A DNA stretch of 42,920 nt from a virus. Every line of letters starts with the position of its first letter. The first letter of the stretch is position 1. Below the pieces are notes generated by a model, which saw only the letters and a program-made list of their open reading frames with translations, was not told the DNA's origin and ran no database searches. Positions 7,504 through 33,741 of the stretch are shown here, in pieces. A program made the position numbers and the translations under genes. The stretch lies in the IMG/VR virus record IMGVR_UViG_3300046517_000359, positions 1 to 42,920 of that record; one strand, written 5' to 3'.

Positions 7504-8627
7504 TACACCGGCCGCCGATCCGCGTAGTAATCAAACGACAAATCGTAAATCGTGCCGCTGACCGGATCGCCAATCAGATGCTTCCCGAAGGCAAACGCAT
7601 GGCACTGCGCGAACGGCGGCAGCCAGCGGAAATTATCGCTATCCCAGAGTGCCCATTCCACCCACTGCTCGGTGCTCACGTCGTAGACGAGTGAGGTGTC
7701 ATTCGTGGGGAGATACAGCACGTAGAAGGCGTGACCGTCCATCTGGCACGTCCAGCCACGGGCGGCCGTATCGGCCGGCAACCGCTGCAGCAAGGTGTTG
7801 ATGGCGGGCGGTGAGATGATCTTCGCGCTGTAGCCATCGGCTCGCACCACGACGGCCCCGCCCTGTTCGGTCTGACTCACCCAAAAGAGCGTGTTGTCAA
7901 TCCGTTGCACCGTCCACGGCCACAGCACGCCAAACTCAATCATGGCGCCCAAGACCGGCTGCAGCGGAAACGAGGCCCCGGAGTCATACCAGGGATTCAC
8001 GCGGGTCATCGAAAACGGCCAGAGTTCGTTATGGCTGATGTTGATCGCCAGCACGCGGCCCGGCCACTGTGAGACCTCGGCCACGTCTAAGGCGTCCCAC
8101 GTCGATCCGTCCTCGAGGTTGCTCGTGTTGAACTGATTGGACTGGTCTTTCAGCACGATAAACTTGGCGTTGAGATACCCGCCCATCAGGGCCGGCAGCG
8201 GGAACCCCGGATCGGTAATCTCGGTGAGCGTTTGCGCCACGAGGTCATACACGTAACCGAGGCCGCCTGCCGTAATGAACAACTGGTGCCCGCCGCTGCC
8301 ATCCGGCCCGCCATTGCTGCTAATCGTCGCGGGATTCCCGTTCACCGCGACCGTGCCGCGGACAATCGCCGTTTGCGTGCTGAACAGCTCCACAAACAAA
8401 TCGCCCGAGACGGCCCACGCTTGCGTGTCCTGCGTGTAGATCGCCCGCACGGGTCCACTGCCGAGTGTGACCCACGGCCGACGCCCTGGCCGCCCATACA
8501 GCGACGAAGGCACCTTCGGTGCGCCTACTTGCGGGGCTTCCCAGACGTAATTCACCGTCCGCTCATCATCGACGTTGCGCGAGCGGGTGATATTCGACGG
8601 GCCACAGAACCCCGGCAAGCGGCTCAT
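7503..8627 (-). CDS. Packaged-DNA stabilisation protein, P22 gp10-like (374 aa)
   Basis: Start chosen at the ATG overlapping the previous stop (ATGA, 8627), giving 'MSRLPGFCGPSN'. The N-terminus has the hallmark 'RNVDDERTVNYVWE' and 'GRPGRRPWVTLG', then repeated short strands of a propeller-like fold (WAVSGDLFVELF, HQLFITAGGLGYVYDL, WPGRVLAINISHNELW). P22 gp10 is about 470 aa; this one is shorter. In P22 it binds gp4 at the portal exit and stops DNA leakage. Confidence 0.75.
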   Translation of the reverse strand: MSRLPGFCGPSNITRSRNVDDERTVNYVWEAPQVGAPKVPSSLYGRPGRRPWVTLGSGPVRAIYTQDTQAWAVSGDLFVELFSTQTAIVRGTVAVNGNPATISSNGGPDGSGGHQLFITAGGLGYVYDLVAQTLTEITDPGFPLPALMGGYLNAKFIVLKDQSNQFNTSNLEDGSTWDALDVAEVSQWPGRVLAINISHNELWPFSMTRVNPWYDSGASFPLQPVLGAMIEFGVLWPWTVQRIDNTLFWVSQTEQGGAVVVRADGYSAKIISPPAINTLLQRLPADTAARGWTCQMDGHAFYVLYLPTNDTSLVYDVSTEQWVEWALWDSDNFRWLPPFAQCHAFAFGKHLIGDPVSGTIYDLSFDYYADRRPV

Positions 8628-10024
8628 AGGCCCACCATCCGAGACGTGGCCGAGCGTGATCCCACCGACCCCGGATCGGTCGTCGGCCGGCGCTGAATAA
8701 TCTCGCCAATGATGCCGTGCAAGAGGGGCAAGAATTGAATCATCGGGAACCGGGCGATGCTGAGTGTATTCCTTCGCGTCGTGTCTGGATAGAGCGCACT
8801 CCACAGCAAGGTCGCGGCGAAGTCTTGCAAGTCCTCCGGCCGGAACGTCGTCGGCAGTTCGGCTGTGGACAGTGCCAATCGGCTGGTGCGGTCGGGATAG
8901 AACGCATTCCAGAGCAGGGTAATGATGTTGGAACTATCCACGCCCATGCCGACATGGCCGAATTGGGCCGCCTGCAGCGCACGGCGCCGCGTGGTATCCG
9001 GATAGAAGGCGTTCCAGAGCAGGGTGCGAGTGAAGTTTTCCTGTGCCTCGGTCGGCCGGAAGATGGATGGCAGTTCGGCCACACTGAGCCGCGCTTGCCG
9101 TGTCGTATCGGGATACTTCGCACTCCAGAGCAGTGTCGGGCGATAGCTTTCGAGGGCTTCCGGTCGAAACACGCTCGGTCGCAGCGCATCGCGCCACACC
9201 GCTCGGCGCGTCGTGTCGGGATACGTCCAATAAATCTGCGTCGAGAACGGTTCGATCACCGGTTCTGGACGCGACGTGAACGGCAACAGGGCCGTCTTTA
9301 AGGCATTTCGCCGTGTGGTGTCGGGATACTCCACGCTCCACTGCGCCATCGCGGCGAGGTCTTCTGGCCGGAAGGTCCAGGGAATATCCGCATTGAGCAG
9401 CCGCCGCCGAATAAACTGATACGGGCTGTCCGGTGTCTCGCTGCTCCATTCGAGCGTCGGCGGGAACGTCGTCGGCGCGGGCGGCTCGACATCGGTTGTG
9501 AGCAGCGAGATGCTGCGCTTGGCCCGAGTCGGCGTGCTCGCGGGCCACTCAATCAACCAATCCGTCGAGACAGCCGCTTGTGGGGCCGACAGATCGCTCC
9601 ACCAGAAGGGGAAGCCCGGCTGGCGCGTGCGCAACAGATACTTGTTCGGCAGTTCGCGCGTGCCAATGACCGAAATAGGTCGGCTGAAGGGAAAACTCTC
9701 CAGCGTGCTACCGGTCGTGAACCACGGCGCGTTAAGATACCCGCCGCCTCGTCCACGGTAGTCGCGCCGATTAATGAACTGCTGCGGATTGGCCGGGACA
9801 TAGGCGTGGCCGATGTCTTTCGTGGCCCCAATAACGACCCAATTTTCAACCGCAAAAACATTCGCCCCGGTTGTCTGGTCGGCCGTGAGCATTTGGCCGT
9901 TCGTTGGCCTGCCACGACTCCCCTGACGCACCTGATCGGGGTGCCAGCCCCGCCAGCCAAACTGGTCGATACTCGGCGTCGGCAGGCGAACCGGCTGTGT
10001 ATAGCCGGGGTATTGGATCTGCAC
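8624..10024 (-). CDS. Structural protein with about seven W-x-x-x-YPDTTRR repeats (466 aa)
   Basis: GTG start 1 nt after the HNH gene. Residues 1-190 are unique and aromatic-rich. From about residue 190 a unit of 35-38 residues recurs about seven times: W(S/N)xxYPDTTRRxxL, A(E/L)LPxxFRPE, then an aliphatic 'TLL' before the next Trp. One copy (after residue 350) replaces the FRPE part with 'FGHVGMGVDSSN'. The last 35 residues are basic. No known family is recognised. It lies between two virion genes and is probably a tail or capsid-surface component. Confidence 0.65.
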   Translation of the reverse strand: MQIQYPGYTQPVRLPTPSIDQFGWRGWHPDQVRQGSRGRPTNGQMLTADQTTGANVFAVENWVVIGATKDIGHAYVPANPQQFINRRDYRGRGGGYLNAPWFTTGSTLESFPFSRPISVIGTRELPNKYLLRTRQPGFPFWWSDLSAPQAAVSTDWLIEWPASTPTRAKRSISLLTTDVEPPAPTTFPPTLEWSSETPDSPYQFIRRRLLNADIPWTFRPEDLAAMAQWSVEYPDTTRRNALKTALLPFTSRPEPVIEPFSTQIYWTYPDTTRRAVWRDALRPSVFRPEALESYRPTLLWSAKYPDTTRQARLSVAELPSIFRPTEAQENFTRTLLWNAFYPDTTRRRALQAAQFGHVGMGVDSSNIITLLWNAFYPDRTSRLALSTAELPTTFRPEDLQDFAATLLWSALYPDTTRRNTLSIARFPMIQFLPLLHGIIGEIIQRRPTTDPGSVGSRSATSRMVGL

Positions 10025-10025
10025 G

Positions 10026-10457
10026 TTACGCGATCCTCGCGCCCTTTAACCGATTGCAATAGGCATGGGCTAGTTGGATATTATCGCGCGTATGCGAACC
10101 GCCTCGTGACAGCGGAATAATATGGTCGAACTCTGTCCCGAAGAGATCGAGAGGTTTGGCGCAAATTCCGCAAAGTCCTTCGGACTCCCGCAGAATGGCC
10201 AAATAATCTATTCGCTCATGTTTAGCAGCACGTTGAATGGCCCGTCGCTTAGCGTTCTTCGCCCGCGCCTTAATTGTGACGCGATCGCGATGTTTCGCAC
10301 GGTATCGTTTGCCGTATTCAGCGTCTTTGAGAGGATGCCTCTTCATCCATTCAAAATGGTTCTTTCGTTGTGGCGTCTTGCGCTTCCACGTCTTGAAATA
10401 TTCCTTGTAGTAGGCTCGGCAATAGGCGAGCCTTTTCTCTTTGTCCCTGTACGGCAT
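10026..10457 (-). CDS. HNH homing-type endonuclease (143 aa)
   Basis: The N-terminal 80 residues are strongly basic and Tyr-rich (YCRAYYKEYFKTWKRK, repeated KRYRAKHRDR), followed by a compact HNH nuclease: 'LCGICAKPL' (CxxC zinc knuckle), 'EFDHIIPLSRGG' (catalytic DH), 'NIQLAHAYCNRLKG' (N and H/C). The gene sits between two structural genes with unrelated composition and higher A+T, as expected for a free-standing mobile endonuclease. No intron boundaries were seen. Confidence 0.85.
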   Translation of the reverse strand: MPYRDKEKRLAYCRAYYKEYFKTWKRKTPQRKNHFEWMKRHPLKDAEYGKRYRAKHRDRVTIKARAKNAKRRAIQRAAKHERIDYLAILRESEGLCGICAKPLDLFGTEFDHIIPLSRGGSHTRDNIQLAHAYCNRLKGARIA

Positions 10458-10466
10458 TGGACTACT

Positions 10467-10763
10467 TTACTCGGCCGTGGACAGGTCGAGGCCCGGTGAG
10501 GCGCTGATGGGCCCGGTCCACTTCGCCACTTGCGTGTTAAACGTCAACTGCCCGTTCACGTTATGAATCTCGACCGTCGAGATGACGTAGGTCTGCTTGC
10601 AGACCCGACACAGGCCTGCCCGAATCAGCGACGGGATCACAATCGGCCGAGTGGACCCGCAGTCACAGAGGATGACCATCGCGCAGAGGGTCTCGCAAAT
10701 CGTCACCTCTTTCGGCTGGAGGCCGATGACGGGCACGCGCTTCATATCCTGAGCGAGCGACAT
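10467..10763 (-). CDS. Small protein with a zinc-ribbon-like core (98 aa)
   Basis: TAATG overlap with the 230-aa gene. Contains a C-x-C pair near residue 33 (ILCDCGSTRP) and 'LCRVCKQTY' near residue 51, so four to five cysteines may bind zinc; the rest is short beta strands. It is followed after a 9-nt gap by the HNH gene. Unknown role, perhaps a minor head or tail part. Confidence 0.6.
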   Translation of the reverse strand: MSLAQDMKRVPVIGLQPKEVTICETLCAMVILCDCGSTRPIVIPSLIRAGLCRVCKQTYVISTVEIHNVNGQLTFNTQVAKWTGPISASPGLDLSTAE

Positions 10764-11455
10764 TAGAGGCTTTCTCCGGGCTTCGGGCCCGAGTCAATGA
10801 GCGTGACTTTACTATAATGCGCGGGCCGTTCCTGTTGACCCCACGGGAAGGTCGCCGCATCAAAACTGGCAGTCGGCGCAAACGCCGCGATCAACACATC
10901 GGCTAACGACGGATCGACCGTGCAGGTCCACGTCGGATTGATCGCGCCGGCTGCGCTTTGGACGACGGTCGCGACGTTCGTCGCTCCGGACGCGCCCACT
11001 TCATCCACGACAAACCCGAGATCCACGCTGACCGACGATGGATCTTGAATAGGGCAGATCAAGGCGGTCAGCACGAGCGACCCGTTGACGAGCGTGGTAA
11101 TCGACCCCGGTTGATAGGGTGCGCCACTATTGACGGTGCCGTTATCGTTCGGTGTTTGGCTCGTTGCGGCTCCGCTCCACGCCTCAAGGGTGATAAATCC
11201 AATCGACCCGGCTGTCGTGCTCACCTGGTAAGTGGTGCTCGTGACCGGATTCACGCAATACCAAAACCGAGAGGACGTGAAAAAGCCGGAATATTGCGTT
11301 AATGGAAGAAATGTATTCACGCCATCGCTGGGGGCGTTCGATGTCGTCGCGCTAGACAATTCCACTACGATCAGATTAGCGCCAGTAATATCCCGACTGG
11401 GAGTCGTGGCAGGATTGCCATTGGCTACCGCGTGCGCGATCTGGGTAAAGGCCAC
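10763..11455 (-). CDS. Structural protein of Thr/Ser-rich beta type (230 aa)
   Basis: Rich in T, S, A, V and G with alternating strands (for example 'FITLEAWSGAATSQTPNDNG' and 'LVNGSLVLTALI'), a pattern of jelly-roll or Ig-like virion decoration proteins. Overlaps the next gene as TAATG. The 'SGAATSQTPN...PGSIT....GSLVL.A' stretch is commonly found in phage surface proteins annotated as concanavalin-like; that similarity is from memory and not tested. Confidence 0.65.
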   Translation of the reverse strand: MAFTQIAHAVANGNPATTPSRDITGANLIVVELSSATTSNAPSDGVNTFLPLTQYSGFFTSSRFWYCVNPVTSTTYQVSTTAGSIGFITLEAWSGAATSQTPNDNGTVNSGAPYQPGSITTLVNGSLVLTALICPIQDPSSVSVDLGFVVDEVGASGATNVATVVQSAAGAINPTWTCTVDPSLADVLIAAFAPTASFDAATFPWGQQERPAHYSKVTLIDSGPKPGESL

Positions 11456-11458
11456 AGC

Positions 11459-11770
11459 CTATCGAAACTTCGCGAGTGCTTGTTCGATGGCGGTCTTGAC
11501 GAAGGTCACGTCGGTGTCCGTCGTCAGTTTCGCCATGAGTGAATTCAACTCGTCCCACGCGGCTTTTGATTGAATATCAGACGTGAATCCAAAGCGAGTC
11601 GTCACTTCCGAAAACTGACTCGGGTCGCTCCCATCTCCCGTGATCATGGTTTGAATCGTTGCGAGCATAACGACGAGGCCACGATAGCCGTTTTCAAAGG
11701 AACTCAGCATCCCACGCAAGATCGGACCATGCGTCGAACTCAAGCCGAGTTGAATATGCGTCATCGCCAT
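11459..11770 (-). CDS. Helical small protein beside the glycan genes (103 aa)
   Basis: Starts as TGATG overlap with the FkbM gene. Predominantly helical with segments 'RGMLSSFENGYRGLVVMLAT' and 'WDELNSLMAKLTTDTDVTFVK'. No motif recognised. Its coupling to the methyltransferase upstream and structural gene downstream gives no specific function; it may be a head or tail minor protein. Confidence 0.55.
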   Translation of the reverse strand: MAMTHIQLGLSSTHGPILRGMLSSFENGYRGLVVMLATIQTMITGDGSDPSQFSEVTTRFGFTSDIQSKAAWDELNSLMAKLTTDTDVTFVKTAIEQALAKFR

Positions 11771-12468
11771 CAGATCGCCTCCTTCGGGGTAAATACAATA
11801 TCGCGTTGCGTCTCTGGGTCGCCTTGCCCGTCCATCTGCGGCAAGTCTTGCGCGAGGTAGCCCCGATCCGTCATGAACTGGATCACGTCGGCCGTCGTGT
11901 CGCCAAACAGGCGCAGGTTATCGCCCACTTCACAGACGACCTTCGGACGGCAGCGGGCGAGCAGTTCGTTGGCCCCTTGCAATCCGCGTAACACGAGCCC
12001 TTCGAGGTCGAGTTTCAGCAGATCGCAGCGAGGAAAGTCGAAACTATCGAGCGGCACCGCCACGACTTCGATAGCCTCGGGATCGTCAGCATTGCCCACC
12101 ACGGTGGCCCCCGCATTGATGCGGTTGGGCACCATCCATAGTCGTGTCGCGTGGCTGTAGAGCGCCAACTGATACCGATGCACCTGTGGCAAATGACGGG
12201 TGTTATGGGACAGGCACTTCATGTGCCACGGCACCGGCTCGAAACTGCGGACCTGTCCAGACGGTCCTACCGCCGCCGCATACGCGACGGTGTGCGACCC
12301 GAGCATCGCCCCGCCGTCAATCGCCACCCCGCCCACCGGGAGCAGCCGTGCGAGGTCCGCGATGCGGGGATCGTAGGCATTAAGCGACTGGTCGCGTTCC
12401 ACCCAGGCCGACAGCACGCGATCCTGATCCTCATCGAGCACGGCGAGGCCATTCGGCAGCACTTTCAC
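11770..12468 (-). CDS. FkbM-family SAM-dependent methyltransferase (232 aa)
   Basis: GTG start overlapping the glycosyltransferase stop (GTGA). SAM-binding motif I 'AIDGGAMLGSHTVAYAAAVG' near residues 49-68, acidic motif 'VRSFEPVP' at about 74, and the FkbM hallmark 'DLLKLDLEG' near residue 138 with 'RCRPKVVCEV' after it. FkbM enzymes commonly O-methylate sugars in glycan or antibiotic pathways. Directly follows the GT4-type glycosyltransferase, so capping of a sugar is the simplest reading. Confidence 0.85.
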   Translation of the reverse strand: MKVLPNGLAVLDEDQDRVLSAWVERDQSLNAYDPRIADLARLLPVGGVAIDGGAMLGSHTVAYAAAVGPSGQVRSFEPVPWHMKCLSHNTRHLPQVHRYQLALYSHATRLWMVPNRINAGATVVGNADDPEAIEVVAVPLDSFDFPRCDLLKLDLEGLVLRGLQGANELLARCRPKVVCEVGDNLRLFGDTTADVIQFMTDRGYLAQDLPQMDGQGDPETQRDIVFTPKEAI

Positions 12469-13568
12469 GCCACCACCTCGACCTCACGCAACCGCTGGTC
12501 CCAGAGATCGCCAATCGCCTGATAGGTGCAGCGGGGCAGGACATGCGCCCGCCCGACTGCCGCTCGTGCCGTGATGTCGGCATCGGCTGACGACGACGCG
12601 AGCCGCACAATCTCAGCCACATAACTGGCCTGATAGGCGGCACTCGCGCTGTCACCGTCAAACAGGACACCGGCATTTGTCGGCACGGTCTCGGAGAGCG
12701 CCCCCAAATTGGTCACGAGGGGAATCACGCCGCAGGCCATCGCTTCAGAGCAGACGTGCCCGTTGGTCTCTTGGAAATACGCGCCGGGATAGAGCAGCAG
12801 ACTCGCCCGTGCCATCTGCCGGAAGTAGCTCGGTTTGTCGTCGCACCGCACGGGCTCAATGCCGCCCGTTTCCTGATTCGCCTGCTGAATCACGCGATCC
12901 GCCAGAATCATCATGCGCGACAAGTCGGCGGTGTAGCCGGTGACGAGCAGTGTCGCATCGGGAATCTGTGCCCGAATCGCGGGCCACATCTTCACGAGCG
13001 GCACCAGGCCCCGATCGGGCTGACTGGCGTAAATAAACGTGTGCGGTTCTCGCGGCACATCGTGTGGAATCCACGCCGGATCGAGCGCCACAGGCGTGAT
13101 CCACGAGGGCGTCTCGGCCAACGCTGGCACGACCGACTGCCATTGCTCCCGCTGCCAATCGCTCACGTAGACGAACGTGTCCACGTTGTTCAGCCCGGCG
13201 TAAATCTTGGACGACTCGAGCACGTCCCCGGCCCAGAGCACCCGATGCACCGGCAGTCCGTCGAGTTCCGGCAAGGTAAACACGGTCGGCTGGCGCACCG
13301 CCACGATGACATCGGGCGAGGGCTCATACAGGAGGGCTTGTCGCAGGTGCCGTTCGACCGACCGCCAGCGCAGATCGCCGTAAACGCCTGGGGCGTCGAG
13401 ATGCGTGACCCAGAGGGTGATGTCGTGGCCCCGCGCCTGCAGTTCGCGACAGAGCCCGACCGTCATGGCTTCCGTGCCGCCTACCGACCCGCCCAAACCG
13501 GACTGATTGACGGACGCGAGACGGGTCGGCGTCCAGCGAATCGAGTCCATGACGACCCAGAGCCTCAT
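12465..13568 (-). CDS. GT4-like (GT-B fold) glycosyltransferase (367 aa)
   Basis: Start is the ATG in ATGA overlap at 13568. N-terminal domain has the Gly-rich 'GLGGSVGGTEAM' (residues 24-35) and 'LQARGHDITLWV'. The C-terminal nucleotide-sugar domain has 'TFIYASQPDRGL' and the GT4 signature 'ETNGHVCSEAMACGVIPLV' at about 265-283 with the usual E-x7-E spacing (E-A-M-A-C-G). No signal peptide, so it is a cytosolic transferase. Expected to add a sugar from an NDP donor, possibly to virion proteins or a surface glycan. Confidence 0.85.
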   Translation of the reverse strand: MRLWVVMDSIRWTPTRLASVNQSGLGGSVGGTEAMTVGLCRELQARGHDITLWVTHLDAPGVYGDLRWRSVERHLRQALLYEPSPDVIVAVRQPTVFTLPELDGLPVHRVLWAGDVLESSKIYAGLNNVDTFVYVSDWQREQWQSVVPALAETPSWITPVALDPAWIPHDVPREPHTFIYASQPDRGLVPLVKMWPAIRAQIPDATLLVTGYTADLSRMMILADRVIQQANQETGGIEPVRCDDKPSYFRQMARASLLLYPGAYFQETNGHVCSEAMACGVIPLVTNLGALSETVPTNAGVLFDGDSASAAYQASYVAEIVRLASSSADADITARAAVGRAHVLPRCTYQAIGDLWDQRLREVEVVA

Positions 13569-13810
13569 GCGTGTTTCGCCATGTGCGTGACGCCATCCGC
13601 CATCCGCTCTTGGAATCCACACTGCGAACATTCCCAGACGGCGTGCAGGAGAAAGATGTCTCGTCTGAGGATGTCACGCGCCGCCACTTTCGCATCCTCC
13701 TCACATAGATAGCCAATGACTTCGACTGTCACCATGCCCCATGTGCCCGCTGGAGGAGGGGCACCCCCATCGAACGCCATAAACTTCCAGTGGAAGTGCC
13801 GTTCGTTCAT
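13565..13810 (-). CDS. Small zinc-ribbon-like protein (81 aa)
   Basis: ATGA overlaps at both ends. N-terminal part 'HFHWKFMAFDGGAPPPAG' then 'VEVIGYLCEEDAKVAARDIL', a single CSQC pair in 'WECSQCGFQERM' near residue 61 and a His-rich end. Possibly metal-binding and small enough to be a host-directed or accessory factor. No family recognised. Confidence 0.55.
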   Translation of the reverse strand: MNERHFHWKFMAFDGGAPPPAGTWGMVTVEVIGYLCEEDAKVAARDILRRDIFLLHAVWECSQCGFQERMADGVTHMAKHA

Positions 13811-13863
13811 CGGCGTCGGCTCCGTTCATACTGCTCCATCCGCTGTTCAAACGGCGTGCAGCC
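13807..13863 (-). repeat. 57-bp imperfect duplication, copy B
   Basis: Copy of 14009-14065 with six mismatches in 57 bp, all leaving the encoded 17 residues unchanged. Contains the stop codon and the last 17 sense codons of the duplicated reading frame. Confidence 0.85.
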
Positions 13864-13869
13864 GATCAT
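13807..13869 (-). CDS. 20-aa minigene copying the tail of the 85-aa zinc protein
   Basis: The ORF 'MIG' plus 17 residues (CTPFEQRMEQYERSRRR) matches the last 17 residues of the 85-aa gene at 14009-14266. It starts at an ATGA overlap on the 48-aa membrane gene and ends with a stop overlapping the next ATG. The 57-bp match (see repeats) differs at six bases, all synonymous, so the peptide is conserved although the zinc domain is missing. The start also keeps 'MIG', as in the full-length gene. This looks like a duplicated gene with an internal deletion still under selection. Confidence 0.55.
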   Translation of the reverse strand: MIGCTPFEQRMEQYERSRRR

Positions 13870-14012
13870 GAAGCGAATACCCAATGAAACCAGTCGCGAA
13901 ACCCACTGGTAACGACCCAAGCAAACGCTGCGGCCACTAACCACAGAATAATAATGCCCATCCATCCTAAATGGGCGCCAGGTTCGTCGAAATCTGGCGG
14001 AATGTAAGTCAT
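13866..14012 (-). CDS. Small membrane protein (48 aa)
   Basis: ATGA overlap with the 85-aa gene, and its own TGA overlaps the minigene ATG. One hydrophobic helix (WMGIIILWLVAAAFAWVV, about residues 17-34) and an aromatic end (RDWFHWVFAS). Unknown role; it lies between the two copies of the duplicated tail sequence. Confidence 0.6.
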   Translation of the reverse strand: MTYIPPDFDEPGAHLGWMGIIILWLVAAAFAWVVTSGFRDWFHWVFAS

Positions 14013-14065
14013 CGGCGGCGACTCCGCTCATACTGTTCCATCCGTTGCTCAAACGGCGTGCAGCC
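14009..14065 (-). repeat. 57-bp imperfect duplication, copy A
   Basis: Matches 13807-13863 at 51 of 57 positions; all differences are synonymous in the shared frame. Codes for the C-terminus of the 85-aa zinc protein. Confidence 0.85.
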
Positions 14066-14266
14066 GCCCTGCTGCGTGCAGCGCGGACAAATGAACTTCA
14101 TACAATTCATACACCAGCCGGTCTGTTCGTCCACGGATCGCGTGGCGTCGAGGAACACGACGCTGTTGCAGTGATGGCACGTCACCGTGCTCTTTTCAAG
14201 GTCAGGCCCCTGCCCATTGAACCAGTGGGCATACCCGCCATCCCGCCGCGCCCGGCCGCCGATCAT
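14009..14266 (-). CDS. Zinc-ribbon protein (85 aa)
   Basis: Two pairs of cysteines, 'TCHHCNSV' near residue 29 and 'WCMNCMKFICPRC' near residues 51-63, with a basic tail 'EQYERSRRR'. Likely a small zinc-binding protein. ATGA overlaps on both sides. Its C-terminal 17 residues are duplicated in the minigene at 13807-13869. Confidence 0.65.
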   Translation of the reverse strand: MIGGRARRDGGYAHWFNGQGPDLEKSTVTCHHCNSVVFLDATRSVDEQTGWCMNCMKFICPRCTQQGGCTPFEQRMEQYERSRRR

Positions 14267-14451
14267 GCCTGCTGCTCCTGCTCTAGCCGTTTGAGGAGAA
14301 GTTCGACCGTATTCCGATAACGCGCCTGTAAATGGTAACGATTCGAGCGTGTCATCTCTCTGGCCGCATCTGGATTCGTCTTGAGACGATCTTTCAGCGC
14401 CGCATACGTCTGTTCGATAAACGCTTCGGAATAGATGTAGTCGTCGCTCAT
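14263..14451 (-). CDS. Helical small protein (62 aa)
   Basis: ATGA overlap with the glycosyltransferase gene. All-helical, charged sequence (YAALKDRLKTNPDAAREMTR, then LLLKRLEQEQQA). No family recognised. It sits between the glycosyltransferase and zinc-ribbon genes. Confidence 0.6.
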   Translation of the reverse strand: MSDDYIYSEAFIEQTYAALKDRLKTNPDAAREMTRSNRYHLQARYRNTVELLLKRLEQEQQA

Positions 14452-15176
14452 GCCAGCACCGCCGCGGGCACCTTCGCCGTCAGCGTCTCGGTCTCGGCCG
14501 CGTCAATCACCAGACTCACCCGACCGCGCTTTACGACCGTTGCCCATTCGCCCTCAACGACCGCCGGCCACACCGCCCACGTCGTCAAATGGCCGAGGTG
14601 ACTGTCCAAGTCCACCATCACGGGAATCCCGGCCCGCTGTGCGTAGACACAAAACGCGAAATCCTCGCCAATGGCGTCACTTTGGCCCAAGCGATACCAG
14701 GGCGGCGGCAATCGCTCGTAGACATCCCGGCGCACAAACATGCCCGAGGCACCCGCCGCATACACCGGCACGATGCCCGAGGTTGGTAAGGTATTCAGTG
14801 AGAGTAGCGGCAGGTCCACCACGTCCCCATCGCCTTCAGGCGGCCCATACAGGGCGGGCGGAAAGGGCGCGGTGCGCTGCAAATAGAGCGAAGCGACAAT
14901 CGGATGGCGAATCTTGGCGTTGAGCGCCGGTTCATGCCGATAGAGCCACCGCCGCAGATACTCAGGCGAGACGGCATGATCGTCATCGATCATCATCAGC
15001 CACTCGGCATCGGTCGAGAGGAAGTATTCGACCATCGCCTGCCGCGTTTGGCCCAGCGTGCCGCTGTATTTGATGTGGACCTCGACGCCGTCAGGCGCTT
15101 CGAGGGTTTGCAGATCGCCCCAAAACTCCGTGAACCGCGCAATTTCCTGCGCGACGACGCCGACGATGCCCTTCAT
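14448..15176 (-). CDS. GT-A glycosyltransferase (GT2-like), 242 aa
   Basis: Start ATG overlaps the previous stop as ATGA. Residues 40-60 'GQTRQAMVEYFLST' then the metal-binding 'WLMMIDDDHAV' (DDD near 63-65), 'GASGMFVRRDVYERLP' acceptor-loop region, 'GEDFAFCVYAQRAGIPVMVD' and 'GHLTTWAVWP'. The last two elements match 'EDIFFYEQATAAGVPVWGD' and 'GHYSPTVLWP' in the 236-aa gene at 18293, so the two are paralogues. Cytosolic. Predicted to transfer a sugar from an NDP-donor; acceptor unknown. Confidence 0.85.
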   Translation of the reverse strand: MKGIVGVVAQEIARFTEFWGDLQTLEAPDGVEVHIKYSGTLGQTRQAMVEYFLSTDAEWLMMIDDDHAVSPEYLRRWLYRHEPALNAKIRHPIVASLYLQRTAPFPPALYGPPEGDGDVVDLPLLSLNTLPTSGIVPVYAAGASGMFVRRDVYERLPPPWYRLGQSDAIGEDFAFCVYAQRAGIPVMVDLDSHLGHLTTWAVWPAVVEGEWATVVKRGRVSLVIDAAETETLTAKVPAAVLA

Positions 15177-15505
15177 CGCAACTCATGCGGGAAATCATCA
15201 AACACGCCAAACATCTCCAGCGCATCCTGCTTGTAACACTCGTAGCAGACGATCTTTGGCACGGCCTCGAGTCCCGCCCGGCCTTCAATCGTCGCCGCCC
15301 GAAACTTCCGAGCCGAATCCGGAGAGACATACCCCGCTGGTGCCGTGGCATAGGACGGCACGGGTTCCCAGCACCGCTCACAACACCCGACGTTCAGCGG
15401 ATACGGCGTGCCCTCTGACGTGTAGCGCGTGACGGGACGCGAGCACGTCCCATCAGGGGCGGTCACGACATCGGTGGGTCGAAGCGTCTTTTCGCCAAGC
15501 GGCAT
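15173..15505 (-). CDS. Small zinc-ribbon protein (110 aa)
   Basis: 'VGCCERCWEPVP' near residue 39 and 'IVCYECYKQDAL' near residue 85 provide CxxC pairs separated by about 45 residues, suggesting a treble-clef or zinc-ribbon. ATGA overlap with the GT2-like gene. Unknown function. Confidence 0.6.
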   Translation of the reverse strand: MPLGEKTLRPTDVVTAPDGTCSRPVTRYTSEGTPYPLNVGCCERCWEPVPSYATAPAGYVSPDSARKFRAATIEGRAGLEAVPKIVCYECYKQDALEMFGVFDDFPHELR

Positions 15506-15506
15506 C

Positions 15507-15965
15507 TTACTCTTGCCACTGGGCGCTGAAGGCGTAGTTGGCCGTCGCGCTCGCCACGACCGACATCACGGCAATGCCGTTGTTCGTGGTCGCCGGCACC
15601 ACGAGTTCGGAGTCGGGCACCGCGACCCAGCGGAAGGTGGCGCGTTGGTTCATGCCCACCTGCAAGAGCGTCGTCACGGCCGTAATCGTCGGCTGCGTCG
15701 AGCTCCATGCCGAAATCCACGTCATCAGGGACGCGGGATCGGCCGCATCGAGCGGCGGCGGCACGACGGTCGTGGTGCCCAGCCCGGAGGTCGTCATGCG
15801 CTGCAGGGCGATCTTGGTCGCCGCGTCGGCCGGAGTCGCATCCGAGCCAATCACGAAGTCATAGATACGGGCGCGAGTCGTCGCGCCGTTGGCGTTCACC
15901 GCGGCGAGCGGGGCGGTGGCCGAAGCGGTGTTCGTCGCGTTGGAAAAGCCGTTATAGCGTCGCAT
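15507..15965 (-). CDS. Minor structural protein (152 aa)
   Basis: Good ribosome site (AAGGAG about 9 nt upstream). Sequence rich in A, T, V and N with 'NQRATFRWVAVPDSELVVPA' and 'FVIGSDATPADAATKIALQR', beta-rich and without motif. The segment 'RWVAVPDSELVVPATTNNGI' resembles surface proteins seen near capsid genes of several phages. Probably a virion or head-associated protein. Confidence 0.6.
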   Translation of the reverse strand: MRRYNGFSNATNTASATAPLAAVNANGATTRARIYDFVIGSDATPADAATKIALQRMTTSGLGTTTVVPPPLDAADPASLMTWISAWSSTQPTITAVTTLLQVGMNQRATFRWVAVPDSELVVPATTNNGIAVMSVVASATANYAFSAQWQE

Positions 15966-16013
15966 GTCTGCACTCCTTCAAGGCCGCCCACGCGGCGGCG
16001 CTAGGATACCACG

Positions 16014-16358
16014 TCATTTAATCTGCACGTTGTTAGATCGGCCGGGCACCACGACGGTTTTCAGAAGGGTCGTCGTGGGGCCGTCCCCCCAGATCGTAAA
16101 GGGCGTTTCGGTCACGGTCAGGGGGCCGAGCGCGGTAATGGTCACCGTGACATCACAGACGGTCGGGTCGGGTGCGCAGGGGCCAAACGTCACCGGCGCC
16201 GCTTGATTCACCTGCACTCGATACCCCGTCACGTCATTCGTCACCGCATCCGGCTGGCTCCACGTCAAATGTTTCGTCGTGGGCAAGGTCTGCGCATACA
16301 ACAGGCTGACCGTCGCACACGCGCCGGCAAACAACAGCACGAGAGGAAGTTTCCGCAT
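16014..16358 (-). CDS. Exported or surface Fn3-like protein (114 aa)
   Basis: Start chosen at ATG 16358 where a signal peptide begins (MRKLPLVLLFAGACATVSLL, cleavage about after residue 24, near AQT). The mature part has the Fn3-like order 'LTWSQPD....GYRVQVNQAAPVTF....VCDVTVTITALGP' and two Cys likely forming a disulfide (residues around 68-76). Unusual for a structural operon to encode a secreted protein; it may modify the host surface or act as a superinfection-exclusion factor. Confidence 0.65.
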   Translation of the reverse strand: MRKLPLVLLFAGACATVSLLYAQTLPTTKHLTWSQPDAVTNDVTGYRVQVNQAAPVTFGPCAPDPTVCDVTVTITALGPLTVTETPFTIWGDGPTTTLLKTVVVPGRSNNVQIK

Positions 16359-16363
16359 ACGCC

Positions 16364-16498
16364 TCACTGAAGCTGGAGATTCACAGATTGACAGGGCAAC
16401 ACCGGGTTCTGGCCTGGCAACGGGGCGACGGGTTGCACGGCTCGCAGCAGTGCGGTCGAGAGGGCGAATCCCACAACGGCACCGGCTATGCCTCTCAT
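16364..16498 (-). CDS. Small membrane or secreted protein (44 aa)
   Basis: ATGA overlap on the gp4-like gene. Residues 1-20 form a hydrophobic helix (MRGIAGAVVGFALSTALL), then 'PGQNPVLPCQSVNLQLQ'. Could be a membrane peptide or signal-bearing prolin-rich peptide. It precedes the secreted Fn3-like protein by 5 nt, so the two may act together. Family not recognised. Confidence 0.5.
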   Translation of the reverse strand: MRGIAGAVVGFALSTALLRAVQPVAPLPGQNPVLPCQSVNLQLQ

Positions 16499-17568
16499 TG
16501 CGGGCCGTAGGCCAGGATGTTAAACGGGCGCCGGGCATTGTGGACCAGCGCCGGATCGAGCGATACATCCATCATCTTGGTGTTCGCAATCTTGATCCAG
16601 CGCAGGGCGTTCAGCGCCAAACTGTTGAGTTCCGGCGTCCACGCCATCCCATACGGCTGTGCCAGTCGTTTGGCGAGGTTGTAGTGCAACGCTTCCCGAT
16701 AGCCCGGCGCTAAGGTGTATTGCATCGTCAGATTGGTGAACCCCGGCACCGAGGCGTAACTGTAGAGCACAATAGGATTCGCGTCGGTCGTCGGCACCGG
16801 ATAGAGGTAAATCGTTGCCAGCGGTTGCGTGCTGTTGAAATAGCACAACTGCGGGTAATTGCTCTGGAACGTCTTCTGATTGATCGACTCGTAGGATTGG
16901 TCCGTAATCAACGCGAGGTCGATTTCAGTCGGAATCGTCGTGGTATTGATCTGCAGACGCGCCCGATTCAGCCACACCGGCCGCACGGTGTCAAAATCGC
17001 CGCCCGGTCCCATCGTGTAGGGATTGGCCGGCGTGCCTTGGCCCGACACGAGGTTGAACACTTCGCGCTGTTCGTTCAGCAGCCAGCCGGGCTGCAGATT
17101 GAACCCGTCACACAGACCGTTGAGGCGCCGCAGCGCGTCTTGCATCTCGGCGGCCGAGCGCGTTTCCCCGACTTGCCCGATCCCGAGGTCATCAAACGCC
17201 TCGAGAATGATGTCTGAGGCACGAATGGTTCCAAATGTCGCCGTCGTCGGCGGCGAACTTGGCAAGACGAGACTCGGGTTGTAGTCAACGACCGAAAACT
17301 CAGAGTCTCGAGGATCGGCACCCGTCGCCGTGGCATGGAGCCACAATTCGCCTAACGTATTCACGTCCAGCACGGAGGGAATCAGGGCATACACACCTGG
17401 ATCGCTCGTTTCGATAATGGTCCCAGTGGGCGCCGCTGGTGATCCGAGATTTTTAGAGATCGTGACGGTCGGGGTCAGTCCCGTGGCACCAGTGATATGG
17501 TCCCCGGACTGTACCAACAAGAACTTGAGCGGGACGCTGGTATTGCCGCGCTGAACTGCAATCCCCAT
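16495..17568 (-). CDS. Head-to-tail adaptor: P22 gp4-like with N-terminal Ig-like extension (357 aa)
   Basis: Residues 115-330 match gp4-type head completion proteins: 'ASDIILEAFDDLGIG', 'MQDALRRLNGLCDGFNLQ', 'LNEQREVFNLVSGQG' and 'YREALHYNLAKRLAQPYG'. Residues 1-95 are a separate beta domain ('VPLKFLLVQSGDHITGATGL', 'LGELWLHATATGADP') of the kind seen as surface Ig-like domains of phage proteins. P22 gp4 is about 166 aa and has no such extension. It should sit on the portal; the extension may stick out of the neck. Confidence 0.8.
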   Translation of the reverse strand: MGIAVQRGNTSVPLKFLLVQSGDHITGATGLTPTVTISKNLGSPAAPTGTIIETSDPGVYALIPSVLDVNTLGELWLHATATGADPRDSEFSVVDYNPSLVLPSSPPTTATFGTIRASDIILEAFDDLGIGQVGETRSAAEMQDALRRLNGLCDGFNLQPGWLLNEQREVFNLVSGQGTPANPYTMGPGGDFDTVRPVWLNRARLQINTTTIPTEIDLALITDQSYESINQKTFQSNYPQLCYFNSTQPLATIYLYPVPTTDANPIVLYSYASVPGFTNLTMQYTLAPGYREALHYNLAKRLAQPYGMAWTPELNSLALNALRWIKIANTKMMDVSLDPALVHNARRPFNILAYGPQ

Positions 17569-17570
17569 CG

Positions 17571-17942
17571 TTAGCCCCCAACCATCGTGCCCTTACGCGG
17601 GCGACCGCGCTTCTTCGGACCTTCAGGAATCTCCGGCAGATGTCGAATCGTGGTCGATTCGATGGCTTGCACTTCCGCCTGCGCCGCCTCGCTCAGGTGG
17701 CGGTCCTCATAGGCCCGCTCAAGTGAAGCATCGCCCAAGGCGATCTGTTCCTGCTCAAACTGCGCCATCGCCTCTTGCGGACTGTCGCACCAGCCGAGTG
17801 ACTTAGCGAGGTCGTAATCGGCTTCGGTGACGACTTTGCTCGTCTCTGGCAGCCAGTCCGCATCCACGCACACGACTTTGCCGTTGTCAAGCCGTTTGGC
17901 CCGATAGACCGTCGTGCGGCCCGGAATAGGGCGCGTGATCAT
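17571..17942 (-). CDS. Small protein with AT-hook-like tail (123 aa)
   Basis: ATGA overlap with the 95-aa gene. Acidic helical centre (DYDLAKSLGWCDSPQEAMAQ, EQEQIALGDASLERAYED) and a basic tail 'KKRGRPRKG' near residues 110-118, an AT-hook-like G-R-P motif. Unknown; a head-associated protein that touches DNA is possible. Confidence 0.6.
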   Translation of the reverse strand: MITRPIPGRTTVYRAKRLDNGKVVCVDADWLPETSKVVTEADYDLAKSLGWCDSPQEAMAQFEQEQIALGDASLERAYEDRHLSEAAQAEVQAIESTTIRHLPEIPEGPKKRGRPRKGTMVGG

Positions 17943-18226
17943 ATCTGCCAGAGGCCGATAAACAGGCTGCCCGTGGAGGAGTTTCCAATGCGCTTGCAGC
18001 GCACCGGCAACAGCGTGCCGGCAAGCACCGTAAACGTCACAGTCGATTCGTCCTCAAATACGCAAATCACCGTCCCGGCGCCGCCAATGTGGAGCGCATC
18101 GGGATAGCGCCCGCCCGAGGCAATCCCGCCTGGCGGAAACGTGGGATTGTTCGCCGCGGTCGTGTTCGTGTCGCTCTTGGTAAGCCCTTGTGCGTAGTTA
18201 TAACTGGTATAGACCTGTTGCGCCAT
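17939..18226 (-). CDS. Small beta-rich virion protein (95 aa)
   Basis: Thr/Gly/Asn-rich sequence with a 'GAGTVICVFEDESTVTFTVLAG' strand run and ending in 'SLFIGLWQI'. Size and composition resemble head-decoration proteins of podoviruses. It is placed between the glycosyltransferase and gp4-like genes. A small overlapping ORF (18198-18296) shares its start region. Confidence 0.6.
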   Translation of the reverse strand: MAQQVYTSYNYAQGLTKSDTNTTAANNPTFPPGGIASGGRYPDALHIGGAGTVICVFEDESTVTFTVLAGTLLPVRCKRIGNSSTGSLFIGLWQI

Positions 18227-18296
18227 GCGTGCTCACCTCTACACGAAAGACATACGGGGCCGTCGTCGTCGGCGCGAGTGACCAGGACCAGATCAT
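18198..18296 (-). CDS. Possible 32-aa overlapping ORF
   Basis: From the ATG that overlaps the glycosyltransferase stop (ATGA, 18296), a 32-aa frame runs through the 66-bp gap and 29 nt into the next gene. It contains aromatic 'MIWSWSLAP' and 'YVFRVEVSTHG'. The overlap architecture matches the rest of the operon, but the product is short. Could be real or chance. Confidence 0.35.
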   Translation of the reverse strand: MIWSWSLAPTTTAPYVFRVEVSTHGATGLYQL

Positions 18297-19003
18297 CGGC
18301 TCATCACCAATTCTCGCATCGGCCAGGGTTGCTCGAGGAACCCCTCAAACCCATGCGCGACCACCGTGCTCCACGTCCCATCGGCGCGTTGATTCGGCCA
18401 GAGCACCGTGGGCGAGTAATGCCCAAAGCGCACGCTCGGATCGCCCCAGACCGGCACGCCGGCCGCCGTTGCCTGCTCGTAGAAAAAAATATCTTCCCAG
18501 AACATCTCGGGATCGTGCTGGCCCATTTGCCACCACGGTGCCGGCACTTTCTCAAAGACCTCGCGCCGCGTCAGCACGCCGCCGCCCGTGCCACTCTGCA
18601 GCGCCATGAGCCCGTTCGGCCCCGTCTCAATCCCGTTCACCGCTTCCCAGAGCACTTTGCGCCCCGGCACGCGCTCGACCTTGGTATTCGACCAAATCGG
18701 ACGAAACGTGCCGTCTCGCGTGCAGCGCATCAGCGTCATGCCGATGACAATCGCCTCGGGCCGTCTGAGCAATTTCGTCAGCACGTCCTTGGCAAACAGC
18801 AGATCGTCGTCGAGCCAGAAGATCCACTCACAGCCCGCGTGCAGAGCTTCTTCGGCAATCTGATTACGGGCCTGCGCGACCGAATTGTTGTAGCGCACAA
18901 TCTGGATCGTGTCGGCCGGCCGTTCGAGCCGACCGACACAATCCCAGAACGTAGACCACCGCCCCTGTTCGCGGCAGGGAATCCCAATGGCACCCTTAGG
19001 CAA
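18293..19003 (-). CDS. GT-A glycosyltransferase (GT2-like), 236 aa
   Basis: Probable TTG start at 19003, overlapping the decoration-gene stop. Contains 'RYNNSVAQARNQIAEEALHA', then 'WIFWLDDDLLFAKDV' (DDD near residue 66), 'GGVLTRREVFEKVP', 'WEDIFFYEQATAAGVPVWGD' and 'GHYSPTVLWP'. Related to the gene at 14448. Cytosolic transferase. Its place between two capsid-region genes is unusual and hints at virion glycosylation. Acceptor unknown. Confidence 0.85.
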   Translation of the reverse strand: MPKGAIGIPCREQGRWSTFWDCVGRLERPADTIQIVRYNNSVAQARNQIAEEALHAGCEWIFWLDDDLLFAKDVLTKLLRRPEAIVIGMTLMRCTRDGTFRPIWSNTKVERVPGRKVLWEAVNGIETGPNGLMALQSGTGGGVLTRREVFEKVPAPWWQMGQHDPEMFWEDIFFYEQATAAGVPVWGDPSVRFGHYSPTVLWPNQRADGTWSTVVAHGFEGFLEQPWPMRELVMSR

Positions 19004-19610
19004 AGGTCACGTTAATCGTCGAAACCGGGTCCCACTGGCCCTTGCAGGCCATGATCACCATGTTGTCGCCAATGGCGCCGCCAAACGTCGCGGTGCCGGC
19101 CGTGTTCTTGTAGCCGGTCGCCGTGACCGCCCCTGACACGCCCACACTGACCGTATAGGCGTGCGCGGCCGACGCCATGATCGTCAACGTGCGCCCGTCG
19201 ATGTCCGTGCCTGGAGCGACCAGGAACATCGCATCGGCGCCCGTGCCGTTCAGGAAGATATTGCCATCCCGATCCGGAATCGCAATCTGCGCCGGGCCGC
19301 CATAGTAGGTCACGGCCGGCGTGGTCAGCGGAATCGTCACGCCACTGCCTTGCGGCGAGCCCGCAAAGTCGATCCCGGCGCTGACTTCGACCGCCGAGAG
19401 TGCCTTGTGCGCCACGACCGCCGATCCGTTGGCGCCGCGCAGGCCCAACGTGATCGTCACGCCATCGGACGCGATAGCCGCGATAGAGCTCCACTCCTGC
19501 TCCATCTTGACCAGCATGCCCACCGCGGCACTCGTGCCGCTCGTGAGTTTGATCGTCCGGTCGGCCGCCGTGCAGGCGTTCGCCAGAGTTGTCGAGAGTG
19601 TGATCGCCAT
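18996..19610 (-). CDS. Putative head decoration or accessory protein (204 aa)
   Basis: TAATG overlap with the coat gene. Start chosen at 'MAITLSTTLANA'. Repeated beta strands rich in A, G, T and V (for example 'GVTITLGLRGANGSAVV' and 'FLVAPGTDIDGRTLTIMA') match jelly-roll type decoration proteins. It is directly downstream of coat, the usual place for decoration proteins. Confidence 0.65.
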   Translation of the reverse strand: MAITLSTTLANACTAADRTIKLTSGTSAAVGMLVKMEQEWSSIAAIASDGVTITLGLRGANGSAVVAHKALSAVEVSAGIDFAGSPQGSGVTIPLTTPAVTYYGGPAQIAIPDRDGNIFLNGTGADAMFLVAPGTDIDGRTLTIMASAAHAYTVSVGVSGAVTATGYKNTAGTATFGGAIGDNMVIMACKGQWDPVSTINVTFA

Positions 19611-20896
19611 TAGCTCGCCCCTCCCTGCACACGGCAGGCCCAATCCGGCCGATACGCCAACCAGCCGTAGAACACGTCCAACCGGCTGATACCGACATAC
19701 GTCTGTGCGTTGAACTGCCGCACGTAGGTCGCCGCCCAGCCCGTCTCCGGGTCACTCACCGGGGACGCTTCGGCCCCAGGGAACATATCCGGGCCGCCCG
19801 GATCGACCATGCCCATGACGAAGGCGTCCTTGTTGTAGACGAGCGCCTGACGGGTCGCGGTCGCTGTCCAGGTGCCCGATCCGGTGCTGATCGTCGAGCC
19901 CAGCGGAATGATCGCCGCGTTGTCGGCCGGCAGAAAGTCCACATTCGCCAAGGCGTTCGGAATCGGCCCGGTGCCGACTTCGATAATCGGCGGCGAGAAG
20001 GTCAACGTCGCATTGACGCCGCTCGAGGTCGTCGCCTGGGTGATCGTGAACTGCATCAACTGCCCCGTCGAGGTGTAGTTCTGGGGGTTGATCTCGTAGA
20101 CGTTGGCAATCGTGAAGATGTCGCCAATCTGATACGTCGTCGCGCTTGACGCTTCGCCGTCGGTCACGATCGTGGTCATGCCGTTGAGAAACGTCTGCTG
20201 GTTTACGATGGGCGTGAACGTCGTGGACGATCCCGTGGTCCGCTGCCAGGTGTTCTGGTCCATATACCACGAGTCGATGCCCAAGCCATTTTCTCCGCTC
20301 GAGAACTGCCCTTTACGGTAGTTCTTCGAGATGGACGCCTGCGGATTGAACACGGTCGTGTTCGACCCGACGAGCGTGGCGCTCATGTTCGGGCTCAGGA
20401 TGGCGATCAAGTCGTCATCGGGGACGCCGATGTTGCGCAGCTTCGTCACTGCGTCCAGATACGTCTGGAAGCTCGTCGGCGTCGATCCCGGCGTGCCGAC
20501 CGAATGCGCCACGAGCGGCGTCACGCGGGTCAGTCCGTCGAAGTCAATCGTGTTGGCGAGTTGAATCGCGGCCGGTCGAATGTAGCGGTCGCGCTTTTCT
20601 TCGACCGAGAACTGCTCATCAAACACCGAGATGGCGATTCCGATGTTCGCCTGGTCGGTGATGTTGAACCGCACCGTGATGTCCTGAATCCCCTGCTGTT
20701 GGAACGCGGCGCCTTTGGTCGTGGCATACCGCTGCGGGAGACGCAGGGAGAACCCGGAGCCGACTTTCGCGCCCCCGGCCTTGAAATCCGCCGAATACTT
20801 GCGGGTGACATTCGCCCCAAAGCGCAGCGAGTTCTGCGCAATGCGACTCGTTTCCTTCACGACCCAGGTGGGCGTGACAAAATTATTGGTTGCCAT
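19610..20896 (-). CDS. Major capsid (coat) protein, P22 gp5-like (428 aa)
   Basis: N-terminal arm 'NFVTPTWVVKETSRIAQNSL' is typical of this coat family, followed by 'GFSLRLPQRY' and 'QDITVRFN'. About 430 aa is the usual size (P22 gp5 is 430). Follows scaffold and portal in the same order as P22. It would build the icosahedral head. Confidence 0.9.
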   Translation of the reverse strand: MATNNFVTPTWVVKETSRIAQNSLRFGANVTRKYSADFKAGGAKVGSGFSLRLPQRYATTKGAAFQQQGIQDITVRFNITDQANIGIAISVFDEQFSVEEKRDRYIRPAAIQLANTIDFDGLTRVTPLVAHSVGTPGSTPTSFQTYLDAVTKLRNIGVPDDDLIAILSPNMSATLVGSNTTVFNPQASISKNYRKGQFSSGENGLGIDSWYMDQNTWQRTTGSSTTFTPIVNQQTFLNGMTTIVTDGEASSATTYQIGDIFTIANVYEINPQNYTSTGQLMQFTITQATTSSGVNATLTFSPPIIEVGTGPIPNALANVDFLPADNAAIIPLGSTISTGSGTWTATATRQALVYNKDAFVMGMVDPGGPDMFPGAEASPVSDPETGWAATYVRQFNAQTYVGISRLDVFYGWLAYRPDWACRVQGGAS

Positions 20897-20906
20897 GCGG
20901 GCCTAC

Positions 20907-21920
20907 TCAGGCCCCGCGCATCGCCTCCCGCGCTTTTCGTTCTTGCGCGTTCATCTCACGGATATACCGGGAGCCGAACGGCAACTCGTCAGGCGGGCGG
21001 GACTCGGGGGCCACAGGCGAACCACTGACCGGCTTAATCAGGGGTTTCGCACGACTGGTGGACACCGCACGAGCCTCTGAGCCGGACGGGGCAGAGGTCA
21101 TACGACTTAAGAGTTTGCCGATTTCTTTCACCTGCGCGACGGGCGTCTCCAGCGCAATGCGCTGCGCCTCGTCGGGATGCTGGGCTAAGAAGTAGGCCAC
21201 GGCAGGGCCTTGCTCGTCTTCCGCAAGCGCTTGACCGACGAGCCGGTCAAACTTGATATGCTCAATCGCCGCGAGCTTCTCTTGATAGTCCGGATGCTCG
21301 GCGGTAAAAGACTGCACCCGTGCAGTCACTTCGGTTTGCGCCTCGTGTCGAGCCGCTTCTTGTTCAAGATACTGCGCTCGTCGTTCCCGGTTGCGCTCTG
21401 ACCAGTCCACAAGGGCATCGGCCTTCGCGTCATAGGGATCTGGCACGCCCGCGTTAATCATCATCTCCAACGTCGGACGGGGATCGCGGGGATCATCCCA
21501 CGGCTGGCCCTGCGGAGATGACGCAGGCTCAGACGCCGGCTGGACAGCGGCGGCCGGCGTGCGCAACCGCTGCAGTTCCTCTTGCGCGGCGGCACGGGCG
21601 GCGCGTTCTTGCGCGAGTTCGGCCGTCAGCCGGGCATTTCGTGCCCATTCGCCAGTATTACTGACTTTCTTGTTTTTCGGCTTGAACGTGCCGTCCGGGT
21701 TGCGGTTGGCCTCCGCTTCCGTCTTGTAGTCCGGTTCCGGTGGTGGAGTCGATGCCTGTTCGTTCTCGGACGCCGATACCGGCGTCGTTGACGGCTCCCC
21801 AGCCACAGGCACCGACTCCGCGACCGGACTCGGCGAGTCCCCGGCCTGTTCGCGGGCATTCTCCGTGCGCACGTAGTCCGCGAAACTCGGTTCAGGCGGG
21901 GCGATAACGACGTCACTCAT
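20907..21920 (-). CDS. Scaffolding protein (337 aa)
   Basis: Acidic, Pro/Ser-rich N-terminus, a long charged central helix (LTAELAQERAARAAAQEELQ) and a basic C-terminus (YIREMNAQERKAREAMRG). This composition and the position between portal and coat are typical of P22-type scaffolding proteins, whose basic C-terminus binds coat and which leave the head before DNA packaging. Confidence 0.75.
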   Translation of the reverse strand: MSDVVIAPPEPSFADYVRTENAREQAGDSPSPVAESVPVAGEPSTTPVSASENEQASTPPPEPDYKTEAEANRNPDGTFKPKNKKVSNTGEWARNARLTAELAQERAARAAAQEELQRLRTPAAAVQPASEPASSPQGQPWDDPRDPRPTLEMMINAGVPDPYDAKADALVDWSERNRERRAQYLEQEAARHEAQTEVTARVQSFTAEHPDYQEKLAAIEHIKFDRLVGQALAEDEQGPAVAYFLAQHPDEAQRIALETPVAQVKEIGKLLSRMTSAPSGSEARAVSTSRAKPLIKPVSGSPVAPESRPPDELPFGSRYIREMNAQERKAREAMRGA

Positions 21921-33298: not shown

Positions 33299-33741
33299 TT
33301 CCACTCCGGGTCATACACGTCGTCGAGTGTGACGTCTTCCGGCCGTCGAATCTTACACCCAGGAATCGACGTTTCCGCATAGGTGATGATCTGGTCAATC
33401 AACGCCGTCATCTCGGCCTGCGTCATCTGGTCCTTCGCCGTCGAGCGCCGCCGCGGTTCGCCAAACTCGCCATCAGGCAAGCGCAGGAACTTCCACGCGA
33501 GTCCTTGCCACACCTGCTCGTAATCGTCCGGGTCGCTGTAGCCGCATGCCTCCGCGACATCGGGAATCACCACGCCGCGCAGGTACCGCATCGACTGCGA
33601 GCCTTGGCGTTTCGTGACGTGCTTTGTCTCGAAGAGAAACTCTTGGCCCTTAAACTTCGCGGCAAGATGAGCGCAAAGCGCCTTGAAGTCGTCCATCTGC
33701 CAATGGCCGGCGTCATCGCAAAAGCCCTTGAAGACCGCCAT
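33295..33741 (-). CDS. NinB/Orf-like recombination accessory protein (148 aa)
   Basis: TGATG overlap with Exo. 'RYLRGVVIPDVAEACGYSDP' and the C-terminal 'RRRSTAKDQMTQAEMTALID' then 'YAETSIPGCKIRRPEDVTL' resemble NinB-type proteins that help phage recombination. Size and gene order (after Bet and Exo) agree. Confidence 0.6.
   Translation of the reverse strand: MAVFKGFCDDAGHWQMDDFKALCAHLAAKFKGQEFLFETKHVTKRQGSQSMRYLRGVVIPDVAEACGYSDPDDYEQVWQGLAWKFLRLPDGEFGEPRRRSTAKDQMTQAEMTALIDQIITYAETSIPGCKIRRPEDVTLDDVYDPEWK

Follow-up and report, generated by a model that had tools for sequence, protein, structure and literature searches.

What do glycosyltransferase genes do when they lie among the head genes of a phage? 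Phage particles are commonly taken to be bare protein, and virion glycosylation, so far shown mainly in mycobacterial phages, is usually thought to be rare. The window, i.e. the whole stretch of 42,920 bases analysed here, is one virus record, the contig of an uncultured P22-like podovirus. A preliminary description had noted two paralogous GT-A glycosyltransferases, a GT-B glycosyltransferase and an FkbM methyltransferase among its coat, gp4 and structural genes, and read the four as one set with a late, virion-linked role. Profile matches recovered the four enzyme genes where it had placed them, all on the − strand and with no internal stops, and identified coat, portal, spike base and gp4-like genes around them. 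The order on the − strand is terminase, P22-type portal (E 5e-112), scaffold, P22-type coat, g18996, GT-A#1 and spike base, continued by g17571, the gp4-like gene, several small genes, GT-A#2, small genes, GT-B, FkbM, further genes and the gp10-like gene. The head module is P22-like, with P22-type portal and coat and both gp4-like and gp10-like connectors. The features are:

19610-20896, − strand: coat protein, P22 type (PF11651, E 2e-23; phrog_283, E 9e-46)
18996-19610, − strand: g18996, small all-beta structural protein, candidate acceptor (19-member alignment; AF2 pLDDT 83)
18293-19003, − strand: GT-A#1 glycosyltransferase (PF00535, E 3e-6; phrog_1574, E 1e-9; AF2 pLDDT 89.7)
17939-18226, − strand: spike-base protein, RcGTA Rcc01079 family (NF048002, 32.7 bits, cut-off 28)
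17571-17942, − strand: g17571, conserved small structural-operon gene (profile matches in slot relatives)
16495-17568, − strand: gp4-like head-tail connector (phrog_12985, E 1e-29; phrog_637 Ad3, E 6e-5)
14448-15176, − strand: GT-A#2, paralogue of GT-A#1 (PF13641, E 2e-5; DXD present)
14009-14266, − strand: Cys-rich zinc-ribbon-like small protein (phmmer E 2e-6 to an ORF of L017 near GT-A)
12465-13568, − strand: GT-B glycosyltransferase (PF00534, E 3e-10)
11770-12468, − strand: FkbM-family methyltransferase (PF05050, E 1e-14; TIGR01444, E 3e-14)
7503-8804, − strand: gp10-like head closure protein, end of the insert interval (phrog_578, E 4e-57)

The FkbM domain scored over the curated cut-offs (PF05050, 55.1 bits for 22.7; TIGR01444, 53.8 for 37.7), and GT-B gave weak matches to a mannosyltransferase and a GlcN-lipid synthase. 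GT-A#1 and GT-A#2 share 28% identity over 227 residues (E 1e-27) and are, by sequence, true paralogues, as had been proposed. The ATGA/GTGA overlaps attributed to the four genes held for three of them: measured junctions showed ATGA where GT-B begins and at either end of GT-A#2, and GTGA at the FkbM start, with a 1-nt TGATG junction after FkbM. GT-A#1 departs from this scheme: it starts at a TTG within an overlap of 8 nt, and a gap of 66 nt follows it; its TTG start and 8-nt overlap are kept in the related loci L004, L007, L021 and L027. No transmembrane segment was predicted in any of the four enzymes. Rfam gave no match, promoter- or terminator-like sites within 10000-21000 were no commoner than in shuffles, and megablast of the region against phages returned no match. 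Elsewhere in the window, positions 33741-35164 encode a recombination pair, RecT (PF03837) and YqaJ exonuclease (PF09588). At 13807-14266 (− strand), two adjacent small ORFs (81 and 85 aa), the second being the Cys-rich zinc-ribbon-like one, both end in CTPFEQRMEQYERSRRR, a short direct repeat.

GT-A#2 lies 3.1 kb from GT-A#1, with gp4 and other genes between. In L004 and L007 the gp10-like gene directly follows gp4; in the window, about 7.7 kb containing GT-A#2, GT-B and FkbM stand between the two. No close relative of FkbM, GT-B or GT-A#2 was found in IMG/VR. In INPHARED, FkbM had no relative, GT-A#2 had distant matches only, and GT-B was found in one distant genome (three records), there also just after the capsid gene. 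From the gp4-gp10 adjacency in L004 and L007 and this lack of any but distant relatives, we infer that GT-A#2, GT-B and FkbM form a separate late insert, private to the window virus in the searches made. The idea of a single four-gene set is thus not supported.

We scanned IMG/VR with a GT-A#1-only alignment and labelled the neighbours of the 18 resulting viral loci by profiles. The order coat-g18996-GT-A was found in 16 of the 18 (among them L030, whose contig begins inside g18996), with 580-1479 bp from coat stop to GT start where both are present; g18996 is always the upstream neighbour of GT-A#1 where this slot occurs. L031 and L033, the remaining two, are other phages whose GT-As also stand among structural genes. 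Among relatives in coat sequence, L004, L005 and L007 have GT-A#1 in this slot, L009 carries a diverged GT-A copy just upstream of the portal, and no GT-A#1 was found in the stretches examined of L002, L003, L006 and L008. Absence from close relatives, which the preliminary description held to speak against a virion role, was therefore seen in part, L002 and L003 being without any GT-A in the stretch examined. Since L002 and L007 have 97% identical coats and only L007 has the GT-A, GT-A#1 is accessory and dispensable. It is also judged to be old and fixed in place. Further ORFs were seen in two of these regions: between coat and g18996 of L022 (8606-9430), one has by eye the look of a GIY-YIG homing endonuclease (MLVYKITNRITGQNYIGST), and in the portal-scaffold interval of L024 (3994-7052) two tandem ORFs have the common start MGQGPATIRAPWVQR.

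A structure search of the transferases, earlier suggested as a check, was run for GT-A#1. The AF2 model was confident (pLDDT 89.7, pTM 0.89), and Foldseek against the PDB placed STIV A197, a viral GT-A, first (E 8e-9), followed by human collagen galactosyltransferase and mimivirus R699. Lower ranks held the fucosyltransferase WrtF, SpsA and TarP, and ppGalNAcT-2 stood at rank 28, between entries of TarP; sequence profiles agreed weakly with the fold matches. In an alignment of 20 sequences, DXD (D65, D67), D171 and H195 were invariant in GT-A#1 and its relatives, and the catalytic residues were kept down to about 30% identity. By its model, GT-A#1 is a GT2-like glycosyltransferase of GT-A fold, with sugar transfer as predicted activity.

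The wider family was then considered. No function is assigned in PHROGs to phrog_1574, which we read as GT-A; this PHROG is matched by GT-A#1 with E 1e-9 and by the T7-like capsid-adjacent branch with E 4e-24. In four distinct INPHARED genomes, whose capsid genes are not of P22 type, a GT-A lies 0-1 genes after the capsid gene, and in a Methanobacteriales virus of the same collection a GT-A match lies among head-tail genes. The last scan, performed with the INPHARED capsid-adjacent branch, gave at least 583 relatives, of which 80 were kept and 72 had enough upstream sequence. In 68 of these 72 informative loci, all from this second branch, the capsid gene ended 212-935 bp before the GT; the 80 kept loci are mutually related, so that the 68 are not independent events. 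Two cyanomyoviruses carry a GT-A relative near baseplate/tail genes, not near a capsid gene. The 84,980 bacterial and archaeal genomes scanned, with short peptide patterns that make absence approximate, contained one weak GT-A match and no coat relative. The GT-A#1 family hence appears virus-restricted, almost absent from bacterial and archaeal genomes, and, as no coat relative occurs in bacterial genomes, there is no sign of lysogeny. Tentatively, and at somewhat below an even chance, phrog_1574-type GT-As may be an old, widespread viral family that phages of P22-like, T7-like and other types keep next to the capsid gene, with virion glycosylation common among environmental phages outside the mycobacteriophages. 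After the capsid gene of L052 (MW202524, 3117-7277), we also observed a 761-aa GT2+TPR+GT4 protein, a 'gtA' ORF without Pfam match and a further GT-B, which we take as another capsid-adjacent glycan cassette.

We then examined possible acceptors. The AF2 model of g18996 is all-beta, with weak matches to tailspike N-domains and to the Pa223 capsid spike. Across 13 genomes, GT-A divergence correlated with that of g18996 at r 0.68 and with that of the coat at r 0.44 (partial correlations 0.60 and 0.14, respectively); across 9 genomes the values were 0.94 for g18996, 0.84 for the spike base and 0.54 for the coat. This co-divergence is consistent with g18996 or the spike base as acceptor, and physical linkage of neighbours gives the same pattern. 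The RcGTA spike base is located at capsid vertices (PMC7296036). Second proteins matching the g18996 profile were present in genomes without the slot GT-A (L002, 13418-14326; L003, 3105-3896; L006, 3517-4206), that of L002 having the shared part at its N-terminus and a fibre-like extension. Homologues of g18996 with an additional hydrophobic C-terminal tail were seen in L028 (8883-9551) and L029 (2143-2751). A link of g15507 to L031 by way of a decoration protein proved weak and was not used.

Methyltransferase genes occur nearby in relatives: a Methyltransf_24 gene neighbours GT-A or spike base in L004, L005, L007, L020, L021, L025 and L031 (in the latter next to GT-A), with a partial match in L024. 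The window has no Methyltransf_24 gene and carries FkbM instead. GtrB-type enzymes carry transmembrane segments, which the four window enzymes lack, and no GtrA-like match was found among the window proteins scanned; the membrane-bound GtrA/GtrB partners of GtrABC O-antigen conversion were thus not recognised. The arrangement rather resembles the Corndog-type cluster (Corndog gp35-38; Firecracker gp33-36), which likewise has several GTs and an O-methyltransferase in overlapping genes of a virion operon near portal and capsid; in Firecracker, a TylF O-methyltransferase lies beside the GTs between portal and protease. The two differ in that the window belongs to a P22-like podovirus with a GT-A after the coat and has FkbM, whereas the Corndog-type cluster precedes the protease and has TylF. 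The products of Corndog gp35-38 were seen in infected cells, and a role in attaching methyl and glycan groups to the capsid was proposed for them (PMC4351075). Corndog and Che8 have glycosylated virions, and Corndog gp38 and Che8 gp110 are reportedly essential to glycosylation of the capsid (PMC12363180); the virion glycosylation result of the original study is also cited in PMC11256854. Che8 gp108 fuses GT2 with Methyltransf_24/TylF, a pair found as neighbouring genes in the window relatives, although the Che8 genes are at the right genome end, outside the head operon, and their homology to GT-A#1 is weak. With hhalign, no convincing match of GT-A#1 was obtained to Firecracker gp34 and gp35 or Che8 gp108-110. 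Che8 gp110 is of GT25 type and clusters with Corndog gp38; Firecracker gp36, the gp38 counterpart, is also of GT25 type. The window system would thus be similar in working to the cluster of Corndog and the relatives compared, Firecracker and Catdawg, and not detectably homologous to it by the tests made, Firecracker gp36 being judged by its GT25 type. STIV A197 shares with GT-A#1 a viral GT-A fold, as its best fold match, in a virus whose coat is glycosylated, and differs in sequence (14% identity) and in its virus, which is archaeal and has a coat of unrelated type; STIV requires A197, a putative glycosyltransferase of the coat (PMC10551542).

The best reading, which we consider reasonably probable, is that a head-surface protein is glycosylated late and in the cytosol, and that its glycan is capped by O-methylation. 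GT-A#1 would be a late, cytosolic, phage-encoded enzyme made alongside the head proteins, and would, before assembly or in the course of it, transfer a sugar from a nucleotide-sugar donor to a head-surface protein of its own operon (g18996, coat or spike base), with any shielding benefit that such a glycan may bring. GT-A#2 and GT-B probably lengthen or vary the glycan, which FkbM probably caps with an O-methyl group, a step that in relatives would fall to an enzyme of Methyltransf_24/TylF type. Virion glycosylation is favoured by the slot, its recurrence beside other capsid families, virus restriction, fold, solubility, O-methyltransferase partners, co-divergence and the Corndog/Che8 precedents (PMC12363180, PMC4351075). 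The late virion-linked role proposed at the outset is thus supported for GT-A#1, by its slot behind the coat, its recurrence beside unrelated coats, virus restriction, the A197 fold and the same precedents. Presence or absence at near-identical coats, the TarP fold match, the linkage alternative, the cyanomyovirus tail location and the relatedness of the loci weigh against virion glycosylation. If capsid-adjacent GT-As do glycosylate virions, glycan-coated phages would be widespread in nature, with bearing on adsorption, persistence, antibody recognition and cryo-EM interpretation; a PHROG family now of 'unknown function' would acquire a role, and the synteny of capsid gene, small gene and GT-A would serve as a rule for finding more. 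The arrangement is present in a named phage with recorded host, Microcystis phage Mel-JY34, where the GT-A comes directly after the capsid gene, which makes the idea directly testable.

Alternatively, the target of the enzymes might be a glycan of the host surface (O-antigen or capsule), and its modification late in infection would stop virions from re-adsorbing to debris or block superinfection. Phage GTs are often read as host-glycan modifiers (PMC7029224), the teichoic-acid GT TarP is among the fold matches of GT-A#1, and the weak GT-B matches point the same way. We nevertheless rank this as unlikely and below virion glycosylation: the four enzymes, unlike the GtrB type, have no transmembrane segments, members of the GT-A family are hardly found in bacterial genomes, the slot goes with capsid genes from several unrelated families, and bacterial genomes hold no coat relative or sign of lysogeny. 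Slightly less probable still is that the GT genes are mobile cargo in permissive late-operon spots, devoid of virion function. The presence and absence of GT-A between near-identical coats, the private second block and homing-type endonucleases in the same region of the window and L022 would fit such cargo, but not the constancy of slot and coupled start among diverged relatives nor the catalytic residues kept to about 30% identity. Glucosylation of modified phage DNA, suggested by a weak similarity to phrog_842 (HMC glucosyl-glucosyltransferase, E 0.003), was rejected as very improbable, given that this match covers only about 33 residues around DXD and that the proteins scanned, a subset of ORFs, included no recognised base-modification gene.

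Finally, long proteins are encoded in or near the structural region of the window (8624-10024), L017 (14430-15809), L031 (2654-4495) and L033 (15359-19375), all GT-A-bearing phages. Repeated motifs were visible in the translations of those of the window (LLW..YPDTTRR), L017 and L031.
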